DNA of 64,000 nt from the NCBI GenBank assembly GCA_019358875.1, contig JAHHIF010000022.1, positions 1-64,000 on the forward strand. The letters run 5' to 3'. Source of the stretch: Symplocastrum torsivum CPER-KK1. GTDB lineage: Bacteria > Cyanobacteriota > Cyanobacteriia > Cyanobacteriales > Coleofasciculaceae. A program made the translations under genes and the position numbers. Within the stretch, counting starts at the first letter, position 1. Every line of letters starts with the position of its first letter. The notes under the pieces were generated by a model, which saw only the letters and a list, made by a program, of their open reading frames with translations, ran no database searches and was not told the DNA's origin. Shown here one piece after another: positions 35,205-61,879 of this stretch.

Positions 35205-36866
35205 ATGCCAAAACTTAAGTCAAAGAAGAAAGTCAAAAAACATTTAAAGAGCGACTCAACTCTAAGCTTAAAGGAACGTTTAGCCAAAAAGCGGAAGGCA
35301 CAGATAGCACGTAAGGAACTGATTCAATTCCTAACAATCAGTGTCTTCCTTGCGGCGGTTCTTGGTATCGTACTCAGTCTAGTTGTGGGTTTAAAAGCAG
35401 GTGTTGCTGCCCTTGCAATCCCATGTCTAGGCTTCGCTTATAAGTATCCCCGTCAAGCACTTTGGTTTTTTCTTTTTTATCTCCCGATTAATGGCACTGT
35501 TACCTACTGGGTAGGTGGAGGAAATGCTGTATTTCAACTCGCTAAAGATGCTTTTTATCTTCCCGCCCTCATTGCCTTAATTCAGCAGTGCCAGCGCAAA
35601 AAGCAACCAATCCTAATTCCCAAAAAGTTGATGACTACTTTGGGTATTCTCTTAGGGTTATCTGTCCTAACGTTGCTTTTTGTCAATGGGTCTTTACAGT
35701 TGTCTGGCAGTGAAGAGGGAAAAACATTTTTTCAGGGCATTTTAGGTCTTAAAGTTTTAATTGGATATGTTCCCCTAATATTCTGTGCTTACTACCTAAT
35801 TGAGACTAAAAAGCACTTGCTCTTTTGCACTCGACTGCATCTAGTAATGGCAATTGCTTGCTGTGTCCTGGGCTTAATGCAGTACTTTATGCTCGTTACA
35901 GGTGTATGTGCTGGCACTGATCATCTTTCTGGAGCTGATTTATTTAAAGCAACGCTAGAGGCTAAATGTTTTGTCGGTGGGGCTTTAGTTTATAGCCCCT
36001 CACAAGATATAATCCGCTTGCCAGGAACATTTGTTTCTCCTTGGCACTGGGCTTGGTTCCTCATTGCTAATAGTGCTTTAACATTTGCAAGTGCCTTTAA
36101 TGACCCTTCTCTCTTCTGGCGAACTGGTGGTTTAGTTGGCATGGCATTAGTCTTTATTAACGCTGTAATTTCGGGTCAGAGAATTGCCCTTGTTTTAGTA
36201 CCAATTGTTATTGCCATCTTGCTGATTCTTACAGGACAGGTGGCGAATCTTAAACGGTTTTTGCCAATTGGGTTAGGACTCGCTCTGGTGCTAGGAATTG
36301 CCGCAACAACTAATCCAACGATTGTTCAGGAGCGCTGGGATAGTACAGTCAGTCGTTGGGAAGCTTCACCCCCCCACGCCTTTATCTTGGGGCAATTTGA
36401 TTGGGCAATTAATGAAAAGCCAGGGTTGTTAGGAAAAGGTTTAGGACGAGCAACGAATTCTACTCGAATCTTTGGTGAAACGAAGCTTGTTGAAACGTTC
36501 CACCCGAAACTCCTCTATGAAATCGGTCTTTTGGGTTTGTTGGCATTCCTAGCTTTCGTGACGCACTTAACGATGATTACGTTTAAGGAGTATCGCTCTG
36601 TCCGGGACAAAAGCTTACGCAGCTTTAGTTCAAGTTTTTGGGTGTTTGTCCTGATTATCAGTTACTTTCCCTATTGGTATCCTTTGGATACAGACCCAGT
36701 TGCTGTTTATTACTGGTTTTTTGCAGGCGTAATTTTAAAGTTGCCAGAAATAGACCGCCAAGAGCTGGAAAAGCTCAGATTGGTAGAGGAGAATGAGCTT
36801 CAACCGAAAAAGAAGCGAAAAAGCAAAACATCTAGAAAGCAGACTGTTGCCAAACTATCTTCGTAA
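35205..36866 (+). CDS. hpsL: O-antigen-ligase-like polysaccharide protein HpsL
   Basis: 553 aa. A highly basic N-terminus (MPKLKSKKKVKKHLK, then LSLKERLAKKRKAQIARKE) precedes 10-12 membrane segments; a long loop before the last segments contains the Wzy/WaaL-like region (LGKGLGRATNSTRIFGE, then VETFHPKLLYEIGLLGLL). Segments such as YPRQALWFFLFYLPINGTVT and GGNAVFQLAKDAFYLPALIA match my memory of HpsL from the Nostoc hormogonium polysaccharide locus. It would polymerise or ligate the polysaccharide needed for gliding. The C-terminus is again very basic. It precedes hpsN, the same pairing as in that locus, although the pilin-like hps genes are absent here. Confidence 0.85.
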   Translation: MPKLKSKKKVKKHLKSDSTLSLKERLAKKRKAQIARKELIQFLTISVFLAAVLGIVLSLVVGLKAGVAALAIPCLGFAYKYPRQALWFFLFYLPINGTVTYWVGGGNAVFQLAKDAFYLPALIALIQQCQRKKQPILIPKKLMTTLGILLGLSVLTLLFVNGSLQLSGSEEGKTFFQGILGLKVLIGYVPLIFCAYYLIETKKHLLFCTRLHLVMAIACCVLGLMQYFMLVTGVCAGTDHLSGADLFKATLEAKCFVGGALVYSPSQDIIRLPGTFVSPWHWAWFLIANSALTFASAFNDPSLFWRTGGLVGMALVFINAVISGQRIALVLVPIVIAILLILTGQVANLKRFLPIGLGLALVLGIAATTNPTIVQERWDSTVSRWEASPPHAFILGQFDWAINEKPGLLGKGLGRATNSTRIFGETKLVETFHPKLLYEIGLLGLLAFLAFVTHLTMITFKEYRSVRDKSLRSFSSSFWVFVLIISYFPYWYPLDTDPVAVYYWFFAGVILKLPEIDRQELEKLRLVEENELQPKKKRKSKTSRKQTVAKLSS

Positions 36867-36888
36867 CAATTACCAACGCAAAACAACT

Positions 36889-37950
36889 GTGCAGTGCCCT
36901 TTAATCTCAGTAATTATCCCTACTTACGGGCGAGAAGAACCGCTGCGGGATACCCTTGAAGACGTGTTAAAGCAAGACTATCCAGCTTTTGAAATTCTGG
37001 TAGTTGATCAAACCCCAACGCACCAACCTCAAACTCAAGCCTATTTGGAGCAACTGGCTGACGAAGGTAAGATTCGCTGGTTCCGTGTTGACTGGGCAAG
37101 TTTACCTGGTGCAAGAAATTATGGGGTAGGGAAGGCATCAGGGGAAATTGTTCTTTTTATTGATGATGACGTTCAAATGCCAGCAGGATGTTTAAAAGCT
37201 CATGCGAGTAACTACCACCGTGAGGACGTTGGGGCAGTTGCAGGGCGAGTATTTGACCGGATGAAGCTGACAGAAAAAGGGGACTGGCAAGTGGGCAAAC
37301 CTCTTCCTGACTCTCAATCCCTAACCCCTAATCCCGAATTCCAAATTGAGGATTTGCCGCCAGAGGCGATGGATGCTGGAATTGCTTGGTACTACATTGA
37401 CTTAGTACATACTGTGAAGCCCCAGCGCGTCATCTCGGCAAGAGGCTGCAATATGTCCTTTCGCCGTGAAATTTTTACGAAGTATGGGCTGCAATTCGAT
37501 GAGCGGTTTCGGGGAAGCGCAGTGCGGGAGGAGTCGGATTTTTGTCTACGGTTACGTGGCACAGGATACCAAATTTGGTATGACCCTGATGCCTATTTAG
37601 TACATTTGGGAGAGGAGACAGGTGGCTGTCATGATATTAGTACGCGATCGCTTCAATACCAACTGACTTTCTACCACAATCACTTCCTGATGGGGCTGAA
37701 AAACCTTACCGTCCGTGAGCAGCTACGTCTGTATAGTCGTCTATTTGACTGCCACGTTCTAGGGCATCCTCCTTGCTACAAAAGTGGTTCTCCTATCAAA
37801 ATCATCAGTCGCGCTGGTTTCTATATCTTGGGCTTTCTTAACGCTCAAGCTACTCTCATCAAATCCATTTGGGATAGTGGTCAAGTCTACACTCAACAAG
37901 ATGCTAACTACAGCAAAAGGCAGAGGGCAGAGGGCAGAAGGCTTTTATGA
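36889..37950 (+). CDS. hpsN: Family 2 glycosyltransferase HpsN
   Basis: 353 aa from the GTG at 36889, giving VQCPLISVIIPTYGREEPL at the N-terminus, the natural start of a GT-A fold. The frame is open further upstream to an ATG at 36793, but that would overlap hpsL by 74 bp and give a basic leader unlike GT2 proteins. Motifs: LISVIIPTYGREEPLRDTL, VLKQDYPAFEILVVDQTPT, WASLPGARNYGVGKASGEIV, then the metal motif FIDDDVQMP (DxD-like) and RGCNMSFRREIFTKYG. It should add a sugar to the hormogonium polysaccharide. Coupled to hpsL (22 bp gap). The last residues QRAEGRRLL come from a GGCAGAG heptamer array that supplies the gene's 3' end. Confidence 0.87.
   Translation: MQCPLISVIIPTYGREEPLRDTLEDVLKQDYPAFEILVVDQTPTHQPQTQAYLEQLADEGKIRWFRVDWASLPGARNYGVGKASGEIVLFIDDDVQMPAGCLKAHASNYHREDVGAVAGRVFDRMKLTEKGDWQVGKPLPDSQSLTPNPEFQIEDLPPEAMDAGIAWYYIDLVHTVKPQRVISARGCNMSFRREIFTKYGLQFDERFRGSAVREESDFCLRLRGTGYQIWYDPDAYLVHLGEETGGCHDISTRSLQYQLTFYHNHFLMGLKNLTVREQLRLYSRLFDCHVLGHPPCYKSGSPIKIISRAGFYILGFLNAQATLIKSIWDSGQVYTQQDANYSKRQRAEGRRLL
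37919..37941. repeat. Heptamer repeat GGCAGAG inside the hpsN 3' end
   Basis: Two GGCAGAG units and one GGCAGAA, then GG, directly before the hpsN stop at 37948-37950. The array is translated and makes an arginine-rich tail. The same unit recurs near 27150 and 51650. Confidence 0.8.
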
Positions 37951-38005: not shown

Positions 38006-39070
38006 TTAAGATGAGGCACGAGCGGCTTGAGCAAGGATTTTGACGAGTTGTACTAACTGCGGCTTGTCAAATGCTTGAACAATTGCCTTAGCGGCGGATT
38101 TAGGTTCTACAGTAATCGTTATCTGTTTAGGAGTAGTCGCTGGTGGGGTGACGGGTGGTTTCTCTTGTGACTTACTAGAGGTGGCGCTGGCAGGTGTTGC
38201 CGCCGTAAGTTTCTGTAAGGCTGGACTCAACGTCAAGGCACTACTGTTTCCTGCTTGTAGTTGATCACTGGCTGTTTTAAGTTCCTTAATCACCACTGGT
38301 GCTAACGCTTGAAATGAGTTTTTTGGATTGGCGATCGCTTTATAGGAAACTTGTATTAGCCGCTTCCAATCTTCATTTCCTGTCTCAAGTTGCACTAGGC
38401 GCTTGCACAATATCTGAAGTTTTTGACGACTGGCTGGACTGTCTTGTTGTTTAAACAACTGCAACATCTGTTTGAGGATTTCCATGACTTGGGAGGCAAA
38501 GTTAGGAGAACTTTTCCCTTGAGTTTTCTCTTGCTTGAGTGAAGGTGTTGGACTTGCTGCTGTTGCAGGTTCATCAGCGCCAGTCACCTGCCGATTGAGG
38601 TAACTTTGCAACTGGCTAAAGCTGGGTTCTGCGGCTTGCACCGTTTTGTTGGCTTCCTCTTCCCTTAAACCAAACGGGCTTTGTAGCTGTTCAATTAAGT
38701 CTTTTAGGGTATCGTATCCCCGCAAAAACAACGTCTCTAGTTGTTGGTCAACATTAATGGGATGTTCTTTGAGAATCTTGAAAGAATCCTCTAGTCGATG
38801 AGCTGTCTTTTGAATACTGCCAAAGCCCAGCATTGCAGCACCTCCTTTGACAGAGTGGGCGGCGCGAAACATTTCATTCACTCGCTCCGGTTCTTTTACA
38901 ACCGAGGGCAAATCTAATAGCCCTTTCTCAAGGGTTTCCAAGTGTTCTTTAGCTTCTTCAATGAAATAGCCTAAAATTCTTTGCTGGTTTCCCGCATCCA
39001 CGGCAGTTTCCCCTGTCAGATCGTTGTGTGTACTCAGGCTTGCAAGGACTACCCTGGTTGATGTTAGCAC
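38006..39070 (-). CDS. Hpt-domain phosphotransfer protein
   Basis: 354 aa. The N-terminal third is an Hpt four-helix domain (~25-125): ILGYFIEEAKEHLETLEKGL, then MFRAAHSVKGGAAMLGFGSI with the phospho-accepting His of HSVKGG near residue 73. The middle and C-terminal parts are helical, Gln- and Lys-rich and Pro/Thr-linked (AATPASATSSK; VTPPATTPK), with no kinase, receiver or CheW domain. It resembles a CheA-like P1 domain on its own and could pass phosphate between a hybrid kinase and a response regulator. The start is GTG at 39070. It is separate from the large hybrid kinase at 41-46 kb, but could be a partner. Confidence 0.85.
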   Translation of the reverse strand: MLTSTRVVLASLSTHNDLTGETAVDAGNQQRILGYFIEEAKEHLETLEKGLLDLPSVVKEPERVNEMFRAAHSVKGGAAMLGFGSIQKTAHRLEDSFKILKEHPINVDQQLETLFLRGYDTLKDLIEQLQSPFGLREEEANKTVQAAEPSFSQLQSYLNRQVTGADEPATAASPTPSLKQEKTQGKSSPNFASQVMEILKQMLQLFKQQDSPASRQKLQILCKRLVQLETGNEDWKRLIQVSYKAIANPKNSFQALAPVVIKELKTASDQLQAGNSSALTLSPALQKLTAATPASATSSKSQEKPPVTPPATTPKQITITVEPKSAAKAIVQAFDKPQLVQLVKILAQAARASS

Positions 39071-57227: not shown

Positions 57228-57758
57228 ATGAATACTCAAGAAAGTGGTAGCTCTTCAACTCGTTCCGGAGATACCAAAAAAGTAGTAGAAGCGTTTGAAG
57301 GGCTAGGCACAGATGAAAAACTAGCGCTACTCTACTATGCTTATGAAAAAATGGGCGATTCAATCACGCCAGCTGCTCCTACTGCCACGTTCCCAGAACT
57401 GGCTCCTCGCTTACTAGGCGGAGAATTTTATGATATGTCTGATGATGATCAGCTAGCTGTAATGCGAGAGATTGTTAACCGGGAAGATACAGAGCTATCT
57501 CGTGCCTATGGGGCATTGACCGAAAACAATCAACTCGTTGTTTGGTATGCCTGGGCTGTGGCGATGGGAGATACCGTAGTAGATATGCCAAGCGATTATC
57601 AAGCTACCCAAACCATCAACGATGCCCTATCCCAAATTGAAGGACTAGAATTTGAGGCACAAATCTCAATGTTGCGAGAGATAGTAGGAAATATGGGTCA
57701 TAGCGACGTCAAGTCGATTCCTACTCAGGCAGAAACAGGGAAGACGGCAAGCTTATAA
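57228..57758 (+). CDS. Orange carotenoid protein N-terminal-domain homologue (HCP-like)
   Basis: 176 aa from the ATG at 57228 (GGAG seven bases upstream); longer in-frame starts back to 56973 are unsupported. The protein matches the helical N-terminal domain of OCP over its length: LALLYYAYEKMGDSITPAAP corresponds to the OCP segment with Trp41 and Tyr44; NREDTELSRAYGALTENNQL, LVVWYAWAVAMG (OCP Trp110 is kept) and MLREIVGNMG (OCP Arg155 is kept) follow. The residue at the Trp41 position is Tyr; the Tyr44 equivalent is kept. There is no C-terminal NTF2-like domain. It may bind a carotenoid, as in helical carotenoid proteins, or have lost binding. Confidence 0.82.
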   Translation: MNTQESGSSSTRSGDTKKVVEAFEGLGTDEKLALLYYAYEKMGDSITPAAPTATFPELAPRLLGGEFYDMSDDDQLAVMREIVNREDTELSRAYGALTENNQLVVWYAWAVAMGDTVVDMPSDYQATQTINDALSQIEGLEFEAQISMLREIVGNMGHSDVKSIPTQAETGKTASL

Positions 57759-58112: not shown

Positions 58113-58484
58113 ATGACAATCAATACAGCCAAGCTGGAGAGCATTCTCCAAAATTTCGTCACTGGCGCAAGTGATGTTCAGGGAGCCGCTCTTGTCTCTC
58201 CTGATGGACTTCCTCTAGCATCCAGCTTACCGAGCGAGATGGATGAAGAACGGGTATCCGCTATGTCAGCCGCCATGCTTTCTTTAGGTGAGCGCATTGG
58301 TAGCGAATTGTCTAGAGGCTTTCTTGATCGCATTTATGTTGAGGGTGATCAGGGCTATGGCATCCTCACTAACTGTGGCGAGTATGCCGTCTTACTCGTT
58401 TTAGCAAGCAAGGCGGCAAAACAGGGCGTGCTGATGTTGGAAATTAAGCGTGTAATTCCTGAGCTGAAGGCGGCTTTAAGCTGA
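58113..58484 (+). CDS. Roadblock/LC7-domain protein
   Basis: 123 aa, a single roadblock/LC7 domain. Features: LESILQNFVTGASDVQGAAL, VSPDGLPLASSLPSEMDEER, SAMSAAMLSLGERIGSELSR, RIYVEGDQGYGILTNCGEYA and LLVLASKAAKQGVLMLEIKR, the alternating helix-strand pattern of MglB-like GAP/partner proteins of small GTPases. Strong AGGAGG is at 58100-58105, before the ATG. It is followed by a long-loop terminator, then the PATAN/GTPase genes, which suggests a functional link even though it may be transcribed alone. Confidence 0.93.
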   Translation: MTINTAKLESILQNFVTGASDVQGAALVSPDGLPLASSLPSEMDEERVSAMSAAMLSLGERIGSELSRGFLDRIYVEGDQGYGILTNCGEYAVLLVLASKAAKQGVLMLEIKRVIPELKAALS

Positions 58485-58540
58485 GGTAGCTGATGATACT
58501 CAATCGCCCCTAACAGCACACTCTGTAATTTAATTAATTG

Positions 58541-58620
58541 AATTAAAGCCTTCTACTCCTCAAGCAAGCTGTGGTGCGTCTCGGACTACTTCACTTTCCA
58601 CCCATAGAAGGCTTAATTTT
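58541..58620 (+). terminator. Long-loop inverted repeat after the roadblock gene
   Basis: AAGCCTTCTA (58546-58555) pairs with TAGAAGGCTT (58605-58614), with a ~49-nt loop, followed by AATTTTTAA. Stem of 10 bp plus flanking A/T pairs. Probably ends roadblock transcription. Confidence 0.6.
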
Positions 58621-58976
58621 TAAACAATTCGATTCACAACTTCTTTATAGGTCTTGTGAACATTAGGCAACATCTGCGATGAGTTACTCTGAATTATTTT
58701 TGACTAATCTATCACTCGTATTATGTTGTTTTCTACAGTTTAGTTTTAAAACCGTTTTATCTGGTCAGTCTACTACTAGCTGACTCTTACTTCTGCGTCA
58801 ACCTTCGGAACGGGGTTTAATATTGTATGTTTAAGTTGTTATGATAGGAAAAATTTACTTTTTTCCTTGAAAAAGAAAAGTAACATAAAGTTAATAATTC
58901 TTCGTTTTTAGTTTGAAAATAGGTAGAGTATTCTCCTAATTTCAGATGACTTGTAGAGAAAGCAGCGGAATGAGTA
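58621..58976. other. Intergenic region before the first PATAN gene
   Basis: About 355 bp, A/T-rich, with no gene seen; probable promoter of the PATAN-GTPase pair. Confidence 0.4.
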
Positions 58977-59840
58977 ATGGCTATTACGAGTTGTTTAGCA
59001 GAATTTTCACTTCCAGAACTATTTCAATTTCTTGATCAAGGTAGCAAAACTGGTTTGTTGACCTTGCGGTTTCAGCCTGACAGTCAAAATCCAGAGAAAA
59101 AAATTCGTCATGCTCTAATGCATCAAGGTCGGATTGTTGCAGTGACCAATCGTCTTGACCACCAGTGCTTGCTGGCGATGATTTGTCAGCGAGGCTGGAT
59201 TAGCCCTGAGGTGCTGCGTGAGCAAGTGAATCGGTGTCCGGCGAATATACCGATTGGACTTTACTTAAAGACGCAGGGCTTTTTACAACCAGAGCAGTTG
59301 AGATTGCTGTTCCATGCTCAAGTGTTACAGCAAGTGTGTGCGTTGTTTAGGCTTCGAGATGCTCGGTTTAAGTTCGACTCTAAAGCCACGTTGCCAACAA
59401 CCGAAATGACGGGCTTGAGCCTTTCTGCTACCGAAGCGACGTTAATGGGTTTACGTGTGTTGCGAGACTGGAGGTCATTGGTGGACAAACTACCGGAACC
59501 AACTTCAGCCTTATCTAGGGTTGTTTTGGGTAAGCGTCACTTGCGGCTAGATTCTTTGGAAGGGCAAGTGTGGCAAATGGCGAATGGCTCACTTCCTCTA
59601 AATGCGATCGCGTCTCAACTTAAACAGTCTGTAGAAACGATTCAACAAACAGCCTTTCGGCTTATTAGTGTTGGTTTGGTTGCAGAAGTGCCAATCATCA
59701 CTCCCGTTCGCAGTAAAACTTCAGAAGAAGATGTTTTAGAGTCAGCTACCTTTGACACCGAAATGACCAAGGAAAACAATGGACAAGCCCTAAGCCAGTC
59801 CTTCGTACAAAGCTTGCTTGGTTTCTTGAGGAGCAAGTAA
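58977..59840 (+). CDS. PATAN/DUF4388-domain protein (first paralogue)
   Basis: 287 aa. N-terminal ~130 residues are the PATAN (DUF4388) domain known from PatA-type response regulators: CLAEFSLPELFQFLDQGSKT, GLLTLRFQPD, ALMHQGRIVAVTNRLDHQ, then LYLKTQGFLQPEQLRLLFHA and QVLQQVCALFRLRDARFKFD. The C-terminal half (~150-240) is helical (AIASQLKQSVETIQQTAFRL), winged-helix-like. No receiver domain. Such adaptors are thought to mediate protein contacts in cyanobacterial motility/phototaxis and differentiation signalling. The next gene, a GTPase, starts 2 nt after its stop. Confidence 0.88.
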   Translation: MAITSCLAEFSLPELFQFLDQGSKTGLLTLRFQPDSQNPEKKIRHALMHQGRIVAVTNRLDHQCLLAMICQRGWISPEVLREQVNRCPANIPIGLYLKTQGFLQPEQLRLLFHAQVLQQVCALFRLRDARFKFDSKATLPTTEMTGLSLSATEATLMGLRVLRDWRSLVDKLPEPTSALSRVVLGKRHLRLDSLEGQVWQMANGSLPLNAIASQLKQSVETIQQTAFRLISVGLVAEVPIITPVRSKTSEEDVLESATFDTEMTKENNGQALSQSFVQSLLGFLRSK

Positions 59841-59842
59841 AC

Positions 59843-60382
59843 GTGGAAATTATGCGTCTCGTTGTTACCGGCACTGTAGGTGCCGGTAAGTCAACGTTCA
59901 TTCGCTCAGTCAGTGAAATTGATGTCGTAGACACGGATCGTGTAGCCACAGATGAAACCGCGTCACTCAAGAAAAAAACAACCGTAGCCATGGACTTTGG
60001 GCGTTTGCAATTTGCACCAGGAATGGCAGTGCATTTATATGGAACGCCGGGACAGTCTCGGTTCGACTTCATGTGGGATATTCTGATTCGCCGCGCTCAC
60101 GCTTATATCCTCCTTATCGATGCCCATCGCCCTGGTGATTTTCGCGCTGGTCGCCGAATGCTCACCTTTATGAAACAGCGTACACAAATTCCCTTAGTGA
60201 TCGGTTTAACGCATATGGATTGTGAGGGAGCCTGGTCTGAGGAGAATGTCGCGATCGCGTTGGGCTTTGCTGACAAGAAGCACCGACCACCCTTTGTAAC
60301 GCTCAATGCTAATCAAAAAGATTCTGTAATTAGAGCATTGATTGTTCTAATGCAACACTTTATGCAAAGCTCAGTTATTTAA
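59843..60382 (+). CDS. Small Ras-like GTPase (MglA/Rup or COG2229 type)
   Basis: 179 aa. GTP-binding motifs: G1 LVVTGTVGAGKSTFIRS (P-loop), a switch I-like KKTTVAMDFGRLQF, G3 YGTPGQSRFDFMW and G4 LTHMDCEG, where the usual NKxD is THMD. No lipid-anchor cysteine or signal. These features fit the bacterial COG2229/Rup-type relatives of MglA. Start GTG 59843, two bases from the preceding stop, so translation is coupled to the PATAN gene; an ATG at 59852 is an alternative. The roadblock protein upstream could be its partner. Confidence 0.9.
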   Translation: MEIMRLVVTGTVGAGKSTFIRSVSEIDVVDTDRVATDETASLKKKTTVAMDFGRLQFAPGMAVHLYGTPGQSRFDFMWDILIRRAHAYILLIDAHRPGDFRAGRRMLTFMKQRTQIPLVIGLTHMDCEGAWSEENVAIALGFADKKHRPPFVTLNANQKDSVIRALIVLMQHFMQSSVI

Positions 60383-60810
60383 CTTTATATAAAATCTAAG
60401 CGCTTCCTTCTGTAATTACGTCAATAACGTAACAATATTAGCTAAATACAGTATCGCTGGTCACATTAATGACTTGTAATTACTACAAGACAAAGCATCT
60501 ATTTTACATAAGTTAAATTTCATCAATATCCTGTTATTTTAACTACGCATTCTGTAATTGCAATTACAACGGACTTCGCTAAGATAACTGAAACTTAATA
60601 ACGTTTACTTAGCAGGTCTCAAGGTATGCATCTGGATCTGGCGAACGAGCTACAGATTTCTATCGATAGATTGATTCAGGGGGTGTGGTAAGCAGTTTTA
60701 CAATAGATCCATGTTAAGGATTGTTAAGATGTTTCCAGTTTGCGTTGCATAGCTAGCTGAGTGCATCGTTGACTTCGCCCACTTGTTTTCTAGCCTCCCC
60801 TTAAACAACC
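60383..60810. other. Intergenic region before the second PATAN gene
   Basis: About 430 bp, A/T-rich. A 12-bp palindrome TCTATCGATAGA at 60659-60670 could be an operator. A 21-codon frame near 60625 is not called as a gene. Confidence 0.4.
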
Positions 60811-61671
60811 ATGACCATTTCAGGTGCTCTATCCGACTTCTCACTACCAGAAATCTTTCAATTAATTGAGAAAGGACACAAAACTGGGTTGCTGACTCTT
60901 CGTGCTTTGCCAGATGCCCAAGATACGCAAGCACAGTATTTTTACATTTGGGTGCGCGAAGGTCGTATTGTCGCCGCAGCCAACCGCTTAGACCAGCAAG
61001 GTTTAGTTTCACTGATTGCACAACGCCAGTGGGTTAGCGATCGCGTTTTTGATAAACTTGTTCACTGGTGCTGTCCCATTAGTGAACCCTTGGGTATGTA
61101 CCTCAAAGCTCAAGGCGTATTACAAGCCGAACAGCTTAAGCAGTTGTTCCAGATTCAGGTACTAAAGCAAGTCTGTGGCTTATTCCAACTCAAGGACGCT
61201 GAGTTTAAGTTTGAGCAGAATGTACACATACCACCGCGAGAGTTAACTGGCTTAAGTGTTCCAGCGACAGAGGCAGCACTGGTAGGACTGCGTGTGCTGC
61301 GTAACTGGGAAGCTTTAGCAGACAGACTGCCGGATGCAAACGAGGGTTTAGCGAGTACCATTGAGGGTCAACCCCATTATCGACTCAACGCTCAAGAGTG
61401 GCAAGTTTGGGAATACACGAAAGGTACAGTTTCGCTTTGGGTAATTGCTGAGCAACTGAGACTACCCGTTGAGACAGTTCAGCAGATTGCCTTCCGACTC
61501 ATCACACTGGGGATAGCTGAAGAAGTGCCTTTAGTGGTTAATACTAAAGTGAAACAAGCCGTTGAGCCACTCCCTTCACAGATTATTGATGAAGCTAAGC
61601 AAGAGAATGTTAGTAACTCTTTTGTACAAAATTTAGTGGGATTTTTGCGTAACAAAGTTCTAACACCGTAA
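60811..61671 (+). CDS. PATAN/DUF4388-domain protein (second paralogue)
   Basis: 286 aa, the same length and layout as the protein at 58977: ALSDFSLPEIFQLIEKGHKT, GLLTLRALPDAQD, REGRIVAAANRLDQQGLVS, LGMYLKAQGVLQAEQLKQLF, VCGLFQLKDAEFKFEQNVH, LTGLSVPATEAALVGLRVLR, and the same C-terminal end SFVQNLVGFLRNK (the first protein ends SFVQSLLGFLRSK). The two are tandem duplicates around the GTPase. The conserved C-terminal FVQ-L-GFLR tail in both suggests a shared binding partner. Separate promoter probable. Confidence 0.88.
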   Translation: MTISGALSDFSLPEIFQLIEKGHKTGLLTLRALPDAQDTQAQYFYIWVREGRIVAAANRLDQQGLVSLIAQRQWVSDRVFDKLVHWCCPISEPLGMYLKAQGVLQAEQLKQLFQIQVLKQVCGLFQLKDAEFKFEQNVHIPPRELTGLSVPATEAALVGLRVLRNWEALADRLPDANEGLASTIEGQPHYRLNAQEWQVWEYTKGTVSLWVIAEQLRLPVETVQQIAFRLITLGIAEEVPLVVNTKVKQAVEPLPSQIIDEAKQENVSNSFVQNLVGFLRNKVLTP

Positions 61672-61779
61672 AGTCTAAGTCGTTGTTGTTCATTGGTAAC
61701 TCAAGTAGCAAGTTAGCCAACCTAAGCCTAACTTCTGGCAGCTATCACTTCACTTCTACGATACTTTAAGTCTCTTTTT

Positions 61780-61810
61780 CCCAATTCCCAATTCCCAATT
61801 CCCAATTCCC
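61780..61810. repeat. Heptamer repeat CCCAATT (STRR type)
   Basis: Four perfect CCCAATT copies and a final CCC, between the second PATAN gene and the ABC genes. Confidence 0.9.
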
Positions 61811-61879
61811 AAAAACTCAGAACCTTGTACCTTACCCTTCCTCACCCTTTAGGAGAACCGCTATATAAAGTTTCTGTTC

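Follow-up and report, generated by a model that had tools for sequence, protein, structure and literature searches.

The 64,000-nucleotide stretch of Symplocastrum torsivum CPER-KK1 analysed here (contig JAHHIF010000022.1, positions 1 to 64,000; hereafter the window) carries a row of four genes on the plus strand that encode a Roadblock/LC7 protein (Robl), a PATAN protein (PATAN1), an MglA-type small GTPase, and a second PATAN protein (PATAN2). The row was recognized in an initial annotation made from the sequence alone. That observation is confirmed, as all four open reading frames, which were called mechanically, lie on the plus strand at the positions given below and match Pfam families. 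Robl (123 residues; 58113-58484) matches PF03259 (Robl_LC7; 2.7e-18) and is a putative GTPase-activating protein (GAP) or sensor adaptor. PATAN1 (287 residues; 58977-59840; PF14332, 3.7e-26) is composed of a PATAN/DUF4388 domain, a winged helix, a linker, and a C-terminal helix. The GTPase (179 residues; 59843-60382) starts with GTG and matches ATP_bind_1 (5.8e-16) and Ras/Roc (about 2e-5). PATAN2 (286 residues; 60811-61671; PF14332, 1.7e-27) is a paralogue of PATAN1. The gap between PATAN1 and the GTPase is 2 bp, as initially annotated, whereas 492 bp separate Robl from PATAN1 and 428 bp separate the GTPase from PATAN2. Therefore, only PATAN1 and the GTPase look tightly coupled. Terminator and promoter scans gave results near chance level, and no plasmid-borne copy of PATAN1 was found.

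The GTPase contains the P-loop GTVGAGKST (G1; 59870-59896), which conforms to GxxxxGK[ST], the G3 motif GTPGQ (60041-60055), and the G4 motif THMD (60209-60220), in which histidine replaces lysine. GTPGQ, which lacks the DxxG aspartate, is present in 34/34 cyanobacterial members, and residues Thr46-Thr47 of G2 are invariant, placing threonine where Group 1 MglA has arginine. The Asp31-Gly32 pair of Robl is present in 34/34 cyanobacterial and 30/30 other members. In the relevant passages of Wuichet and Sogaard-Andersen (2014; PMC4316618), GTPGQ, a threonine at the position of the G2 arginine, and a coupled MglB with an Asp-Gly pair are the marks of MglA Groups 2-5. With the P-loop, GTPGQ, the two threonines of G2, and the Asp-Gly pair of its Robl all present, the GTPase belongs, by its motifs, to the MglA family of the Groups 2-5 type. 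Membership in Rup is ruled out by GTPGQ, which has no Ras-like G3 aspartate, and by the coupling to Robl. The proposed analogy with the polarity switch of Myxococcus xanthus MglA falls as well, since TVPGQ and the G2 arginine of Group 1 are both absent. In a tree of 108 GTPase sequences, the cyanobacterial cassette GTPases form one clade (100/97), and the window protein lies inside it.

The closest likeness is to Group 5, which shares GTPGQ, the threonine, the Asp-Gly roadblock, occurrence in cyanobacteria, and an occasional PATAN neighbor. However, all 34 cyanobacterial members carry [TS]HxD at G4 and not the [NT]KxD of Group 5, so filing under Group 5 is not secure; in addition, the passages of PMC4316618 on Group 5 do not mention globin or V4R-like partners. 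Elsewhere, 28/28 relatives from Chloroflexota/Aquificota have NKQD at G4, and actinobacteria mostly have Nx[WF]D. Roadblock-GTPase systems are already known, and PATAN proteins near MglA/MglB were noted by Makarova (2006) and, in the passages of PMC4316618, by Wuichet (2014), so the arrangement is not undescribed, as the initial annotation had thought possible.

In the AlphaFold2 model of PATAN2 (mean pLDDT 87.7), the PATAN domain is followed by a winged helix (residues 179-240; 61345-61530, plus strand), which also has a weak HTH_47 match, a poorly ordered linker, and a separate C-terminal helix (residues 269-283; 61615-61659, plus strand). PATAN1 is 49% identical to PATAN2 over 288 residues, tail included. 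Alignment to PATAN2 places the winged-helix-like region of PATAN1 at 59508-59693 and its C-terminal tail, SFVQSLLGFLRSK, at 59796-59837, both on the plus strand. The two tails align as SFVQsLlGFLRsK and SFVQnLvGFLRnK. The shared tail reported in the initial annotation is therefore real, and it is conserved as if for docking. A Foldseek search with the PATAN2 model returned no match at E below 0.001; winged-helix subunits of FAM91A1 and GATOR1 appeared at E 0.04-0.8, which is only a lead. The genome has six PATAN genes, two of them in the window. The other four all lack the tail, and three of these end in a receiver-like region, as judged by eye.

Across phyla, such GTPases usually have as their immediate upstream neighbor a protein whose C-terminal part consists of a winged helix, a linker, and a final helix, and CvnC of the actinobacterial conservons is one of these proteins. 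A tail pattern is present in 62/72 immediate upstream partners and in 83/1026 other proteins, and a stricter pattern in 25/34 cyanobacterial PATAN, 20/27 other PATAN, 12/27 non-PATAN partners, and 1/1026 background proteins; both patterns were drawn up after examples had been seen, and the counts are descriptive. The hydrophobic moment of the tail, taken alone, separated the partners of Group 3 GTPases poorly from background. Comparison of C-termini with hhalign gave 85% for Chloroflexota/Aquificota PATAN against Group 3 partners, 55% against CvnC, and 71% for Group 3 partners against CvnC, with unrelated controls below 5%. Cyanobacterial PATAN C-termini match those of other PATAN proteins at 97.9%. 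MfpC, a homologue of CvnC, is reported as a guanine nucleotide exchange factor (GEF), and the roadblock protein MfpD as a GAP, in passages of PMC13343842 and PMC13015309. The PATAN proteins resemble CvnC/MfpC-type partners in architecture and may, by this analogy, have GEF activity.

The neighborhood is not unique to the source genome. In the same family, the GTPase is present in 21/22 genomes, mostly in three copies, and the order Robl-PATAN1-GTPase is kept in 9/12 sampled window-type loci, with Robl 89-98% identical; the remaining three have no Robl match within the available stretch. Five of the 12 loci continue with PATAN2. The arrangement is therefore not due to chance, although the four-gene order initially described holds across relatives for its first three genes and only in those five for the fourth. 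The source genome also contains a second locus (L004, G000:C56:81000-88200) with genes for two protoglobins, a V4R-like protein, three Robl, and two GTPases; PATAN is absent there. All four Robl, both protoglobins, and all three cassette GTPases of the genome fall within the two loci. Counterparts of the second locus in the family have the order globin-Robl-GTPase plus another GTPase, in many cases together with V4R and Robl. The window row is thus one half of a cyanobacterial module that this family splits into two loci. Neither the second locus nor the globin and V4R-like partners were recognized in the initial annotation, whose interpretation overall is partly supported.

In other cyanobacteria, the module is mostly found in one place. 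The GTPase occurs in 25/292 cyanobacterial genomes (16/116 genera), and these 25, and no others, also carry an orthologous Robl (E below 1e-40). The protoglobin is present in 24 of these and in two genomes that lack the GTPase (G245 and G103), which look like decayed cassettes. The overlap with the GTPase has p of about 1e-36 for Robl and about 1e-31 for the globin, by a statistic that ignores phylogeny. In the neighborhoods of 26 cassette loci outside the source genome, PATAN is present in 26/26, the globin in 24/26, and the V4R-like protein in 10. The 80 named loci are the best matches of the scan. The common orders are globin-(V4R)-Robl-GTPase-PATAN and Robl-GTPase-PATAN-(V4R)-globin, and linkage of the globin to the cassette spans about ten families. 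Apparent decayed cassettes were seen at L155, with a truncated PATAN and no GTPase, and at L157, with the C-terminus of a globin only.

In 11 loci, which apparently all come from one family in the sample (within L031-L042), the cassette is preceded by genes for a histidine kinase and a NarL-type regulator. Together with the winged helix predicted in PATAN2, this raises the idea of a transcription-control module, in which the winged helix binds DNA and the GTPase and globin tune expression, often with the two-component pair. In accordance, gene regulation is proposed for Group 3 in the passages of PMC4316618. However, the winged helix is short and precedes a docking-like tail, the two-component pair is absent outside that one family, and CvnC, with seemingly the same architecture, is described as a GEF and not as a DNA-binding protein. 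We consider transcription control improbable.

The globins of the second locus match the protoglobin family PF11563 above the cut-off and retain the proximal histidine, which is present in 31/32 globins. They are orthologous to Tlr1989 (PDB 8h17; 7e-84), and the globin of locus L051 is identical to 8h17 over all 184 residues. A C-terminal extension past the globin domain, TG....LF.RL, is nearly invariant, a sequence feature that suggests docking. Other sensor-type neighbors were found beside related GTPases. Protoglobins adjoin Group 3 GTPases in gammaproteobacteria (L101, L128, and L134), a protoglobin lies beside a PATAN-GTPase pair in Caldisericota (L135), with the proximal histidine apparently lost, and a hemerythrin directly follows PATAN in Thermosynechococcus-type cassettes (L049 9438-9863 and relatives). 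The case for a gas or redox input lies chiefly in these several oxygen- or redox-type sensors, all found near a single kind of GTPase. In Methylobacter, a PAS protein and a possible periplasmic binding protein (L101 10535-11776) lie downstream of a Group 3 GTPase-Robl-globin cluster. The bilin-binding globins (BBAG) that occur with V4R genes (PMC10151467) belong to a different globin family and a different cluster.

The V4R-like protein probably has a V4R/Bet3 fold, judging from its model. The Pfam V4R match of the protein in the second locus (F5) is weak (0.11). An AlphaFold model built from two sequences has a pLDDT of 56.8, and its top 50 Foldseek matches are almost exclusively H-NOX, Bet3/TRAPPC3, PoxR/MopR, BcsD, and guanylate cyclase. 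A Bet3/V4R fold in a protein whose gene neighbors those for a small GTPase and a roadblock protein would recall eukaryotic TRAPP, in which Bet3-fold subunits act on Rab GTPases, a likeness that rests on this low-confidence fold model.

We propose that the cassette encodes a globin-gated G-protein switch built on a GTPase of the MglA Groups 2-5 type, with PATAN as the GTPase partner and the window row as one half of the system; we put the probability of this reading at roughly 55%. In most carriers, the module forms one cassette of protoglobin, in some cases a V4R/Bet3-fold protein, Robl, GTPase, and PATAN. The globin would bind haem, sense O2, nitric oxide (NO), or redox state, and signal to Robl or the GTPase, as the conserved proximal histidine and the genetic linkage would imply. 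The Robl dimer may serve as a GAP or an adaptor of the GTPase, by analogy with MglB and MfpD. PATAN would be a direct partner of the GTPase, a GEF-like factor and/or an effector, with its winged helix and C-terminal helix as the predicted contact to the switch. Adjacency, together with the profile-level match to partners from Group 3 and to CvnC, whose homologue MfpC is the reported GEF, suggests this partner role. The N-terminal PATAN domain may pass the state of the switch to a target, with type IV pilus ATPases as one candidate. Our results suggest a G-protein switch that responds to gas or redox state in some cyanobacteria.

Several points weigh against the globin-gated switch. The window's own locus has no globin, and neither globin nor V4R remnants were found in its intergenic gaps. 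Solitary protoglobins of the same family, with no GTPase nearby, occur in several cassette genomes (L149-L154), indicating that the globin also has a GTPase-independent life. With two cyanobacterial cassettes that lack the globin, they favor the explanation that the globin is a linked bystander, such as an NO/O2 scavenger, and that the GTPase cassette has another input. The 24/26 linkage across about ten families, the recurrence in two other phyla, and the conserved TG....LF.RL extension, which suggests docking, make this explanation doubtful in our judgment. The replacement of the G4 lysine by histidine throughout the cyanobacterial clade means that guanine specificity is not assured from the sequence. 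The tail counts carry the descriptive character noted above, and cyanobacterial PATAN C-termini alone match Group 3 partners weakly (32%) and do not match CvnC (1.9%) in hhalign, so that the link from PATAN to a GEF runs via Chloroflexota/Aquificota PATAN. Finally, the observations concern gene content, linkage, co-occurrence, motifs, and predicted architecture, and all biochemical steps and the output are inferred from them.

A different output, a motility or polarity switch, was suggested by the initial annotation. On this reading, Robl and the GTPase would set pilus polarity, PATAN proteins would dock on the PilB motor, and hormogonium polysaccharide would be the linked output. HpsL and HpsN equivalogs are indeed encoded in the window (35205-37950, with a short mutual overlap), type IV pili of M. 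xanthus are under the control of MglA (PMC11580455), and PATAN-REC proteins bind PilB1 in Synechocystis, as cited in a passage of PMC9090330. However, the PATAN-REC regulators of cyanobacterial motility signaling, such as PatA and PixE, share only the PATAN domain with the cassette proteins, which have no receiver (REC) domain and instead carry a winged helix and C-terminal helix. The GTPase, with GTPGQ at G3 and Thr-Thr at G2, is not of Group 1. The hps genes lie at a distance of about 20 kb, and in the loci examined elsewhere the cassette has no recurrent hps neighbor, so the suggested link to them is not borne out. In addition, the cassette is missing from more than 90% of the sampled cyanobacterial genomes, although pilus motility is common among cyanobacteria. 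We regard a motility or polarity switch as unlikely. For the globin-gated switch, pilus control is a possible output because of the PilB1 binding by PATAN-REC proteins, yet the cassette PATAN proteins are without REC. SopA does not serve as a PATAN precedent, as it has no known domain, and the PATAN domain is found in other, less conserved M. xanthus proteins (PMC11580455). A minus-strand protein with a CheA-like region (38006-39070) adjoins the hps genes.

The globin-gated switch shares parts with other known systems. The actinobacterial conservons, or AGPS (CvnA-D; Mfp), also combine a roadblock protein, a small GTPase, an upstream third protein with a winged-helix-like region and a C-terminal helix, and a sensor that feeds the G protein. 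However, the cyanobacterial cassette does not follow the conservon order cvnA kinase-cvnB-cvnC (DUF742)-cvnD: its core has no CvnA kinase, its third protein has PATAN (DUF4388) instead of being a short DUF742 protein, and a single-domain globin is the sensor. Group 3 MglA systems of beta- and gammaproteobacteria have a partner of about 400 residues with a C-terminal winged helix and tail upstream of the GTPase; Robl lies downstream, and some also have a protoglobin and a PAS protein. They differ in the N-terminal domain of the partner, which is receiver-like and not PATAN, and in G4, which is mostly T[QR]xD. The cassette globin has the protoglobin fold and proximal histidine of sensor single-domain globins (Tlr1989, PDB 8h17) and of globin-coupled sensors such as HemAT. 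Unlike the latter, it has no fused output domain, and its output would be the separate Robl and GTPase.

A wider proposal is more tentative, and we hold it to be possible but rather unlikely as a whole. It has two parts. Cyanobacteria and some other bacteria would have a gas-sensing G-protein pathway with the roadblock/Ras-like GTPase switch under the direct control of a free haem globin. In addition, PATAN proteins, Group 3 partners, and CvnC would belong to one family of winged-helix and C-terminal-helix partners that every MglA Group 2-5 system has, and these partners would be exchange factors with interchangeable sensory N-terminal domains. For most bacterial MglA-type G proteins, the upstream signal is unknown, and an exchange factor has been reported in few. 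The conserved globin that heads the cassette is a concrete, testable candidate for the input, and the common winged-helix and tail architecture is a candidate GTPase contact site in several uncharacterized systems of at least five phyla. Thermosynechococcus offers a complete one-locus cassette, a solved globin (Tlr1989), and the possibility of genetics. In the open literature, with subscription papers and preprints mostly outside the search, we found no description that joins a globin with roadblock and GTPase in cyanobacteria; the globin-PATAN matches were unrelated, and nothing was found on the function of Tlr1989.

Two further features flank the row in the window. A stand-alone N-terminal domain of orange carotenoid protein (Carot_N, 2e-58) is encoded at 57228-57758, just upstream of the Robl gene. 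Downstream of PATAN2, at 61777-61812, lies a TTCCCAA tandem repeat of four to five copies.

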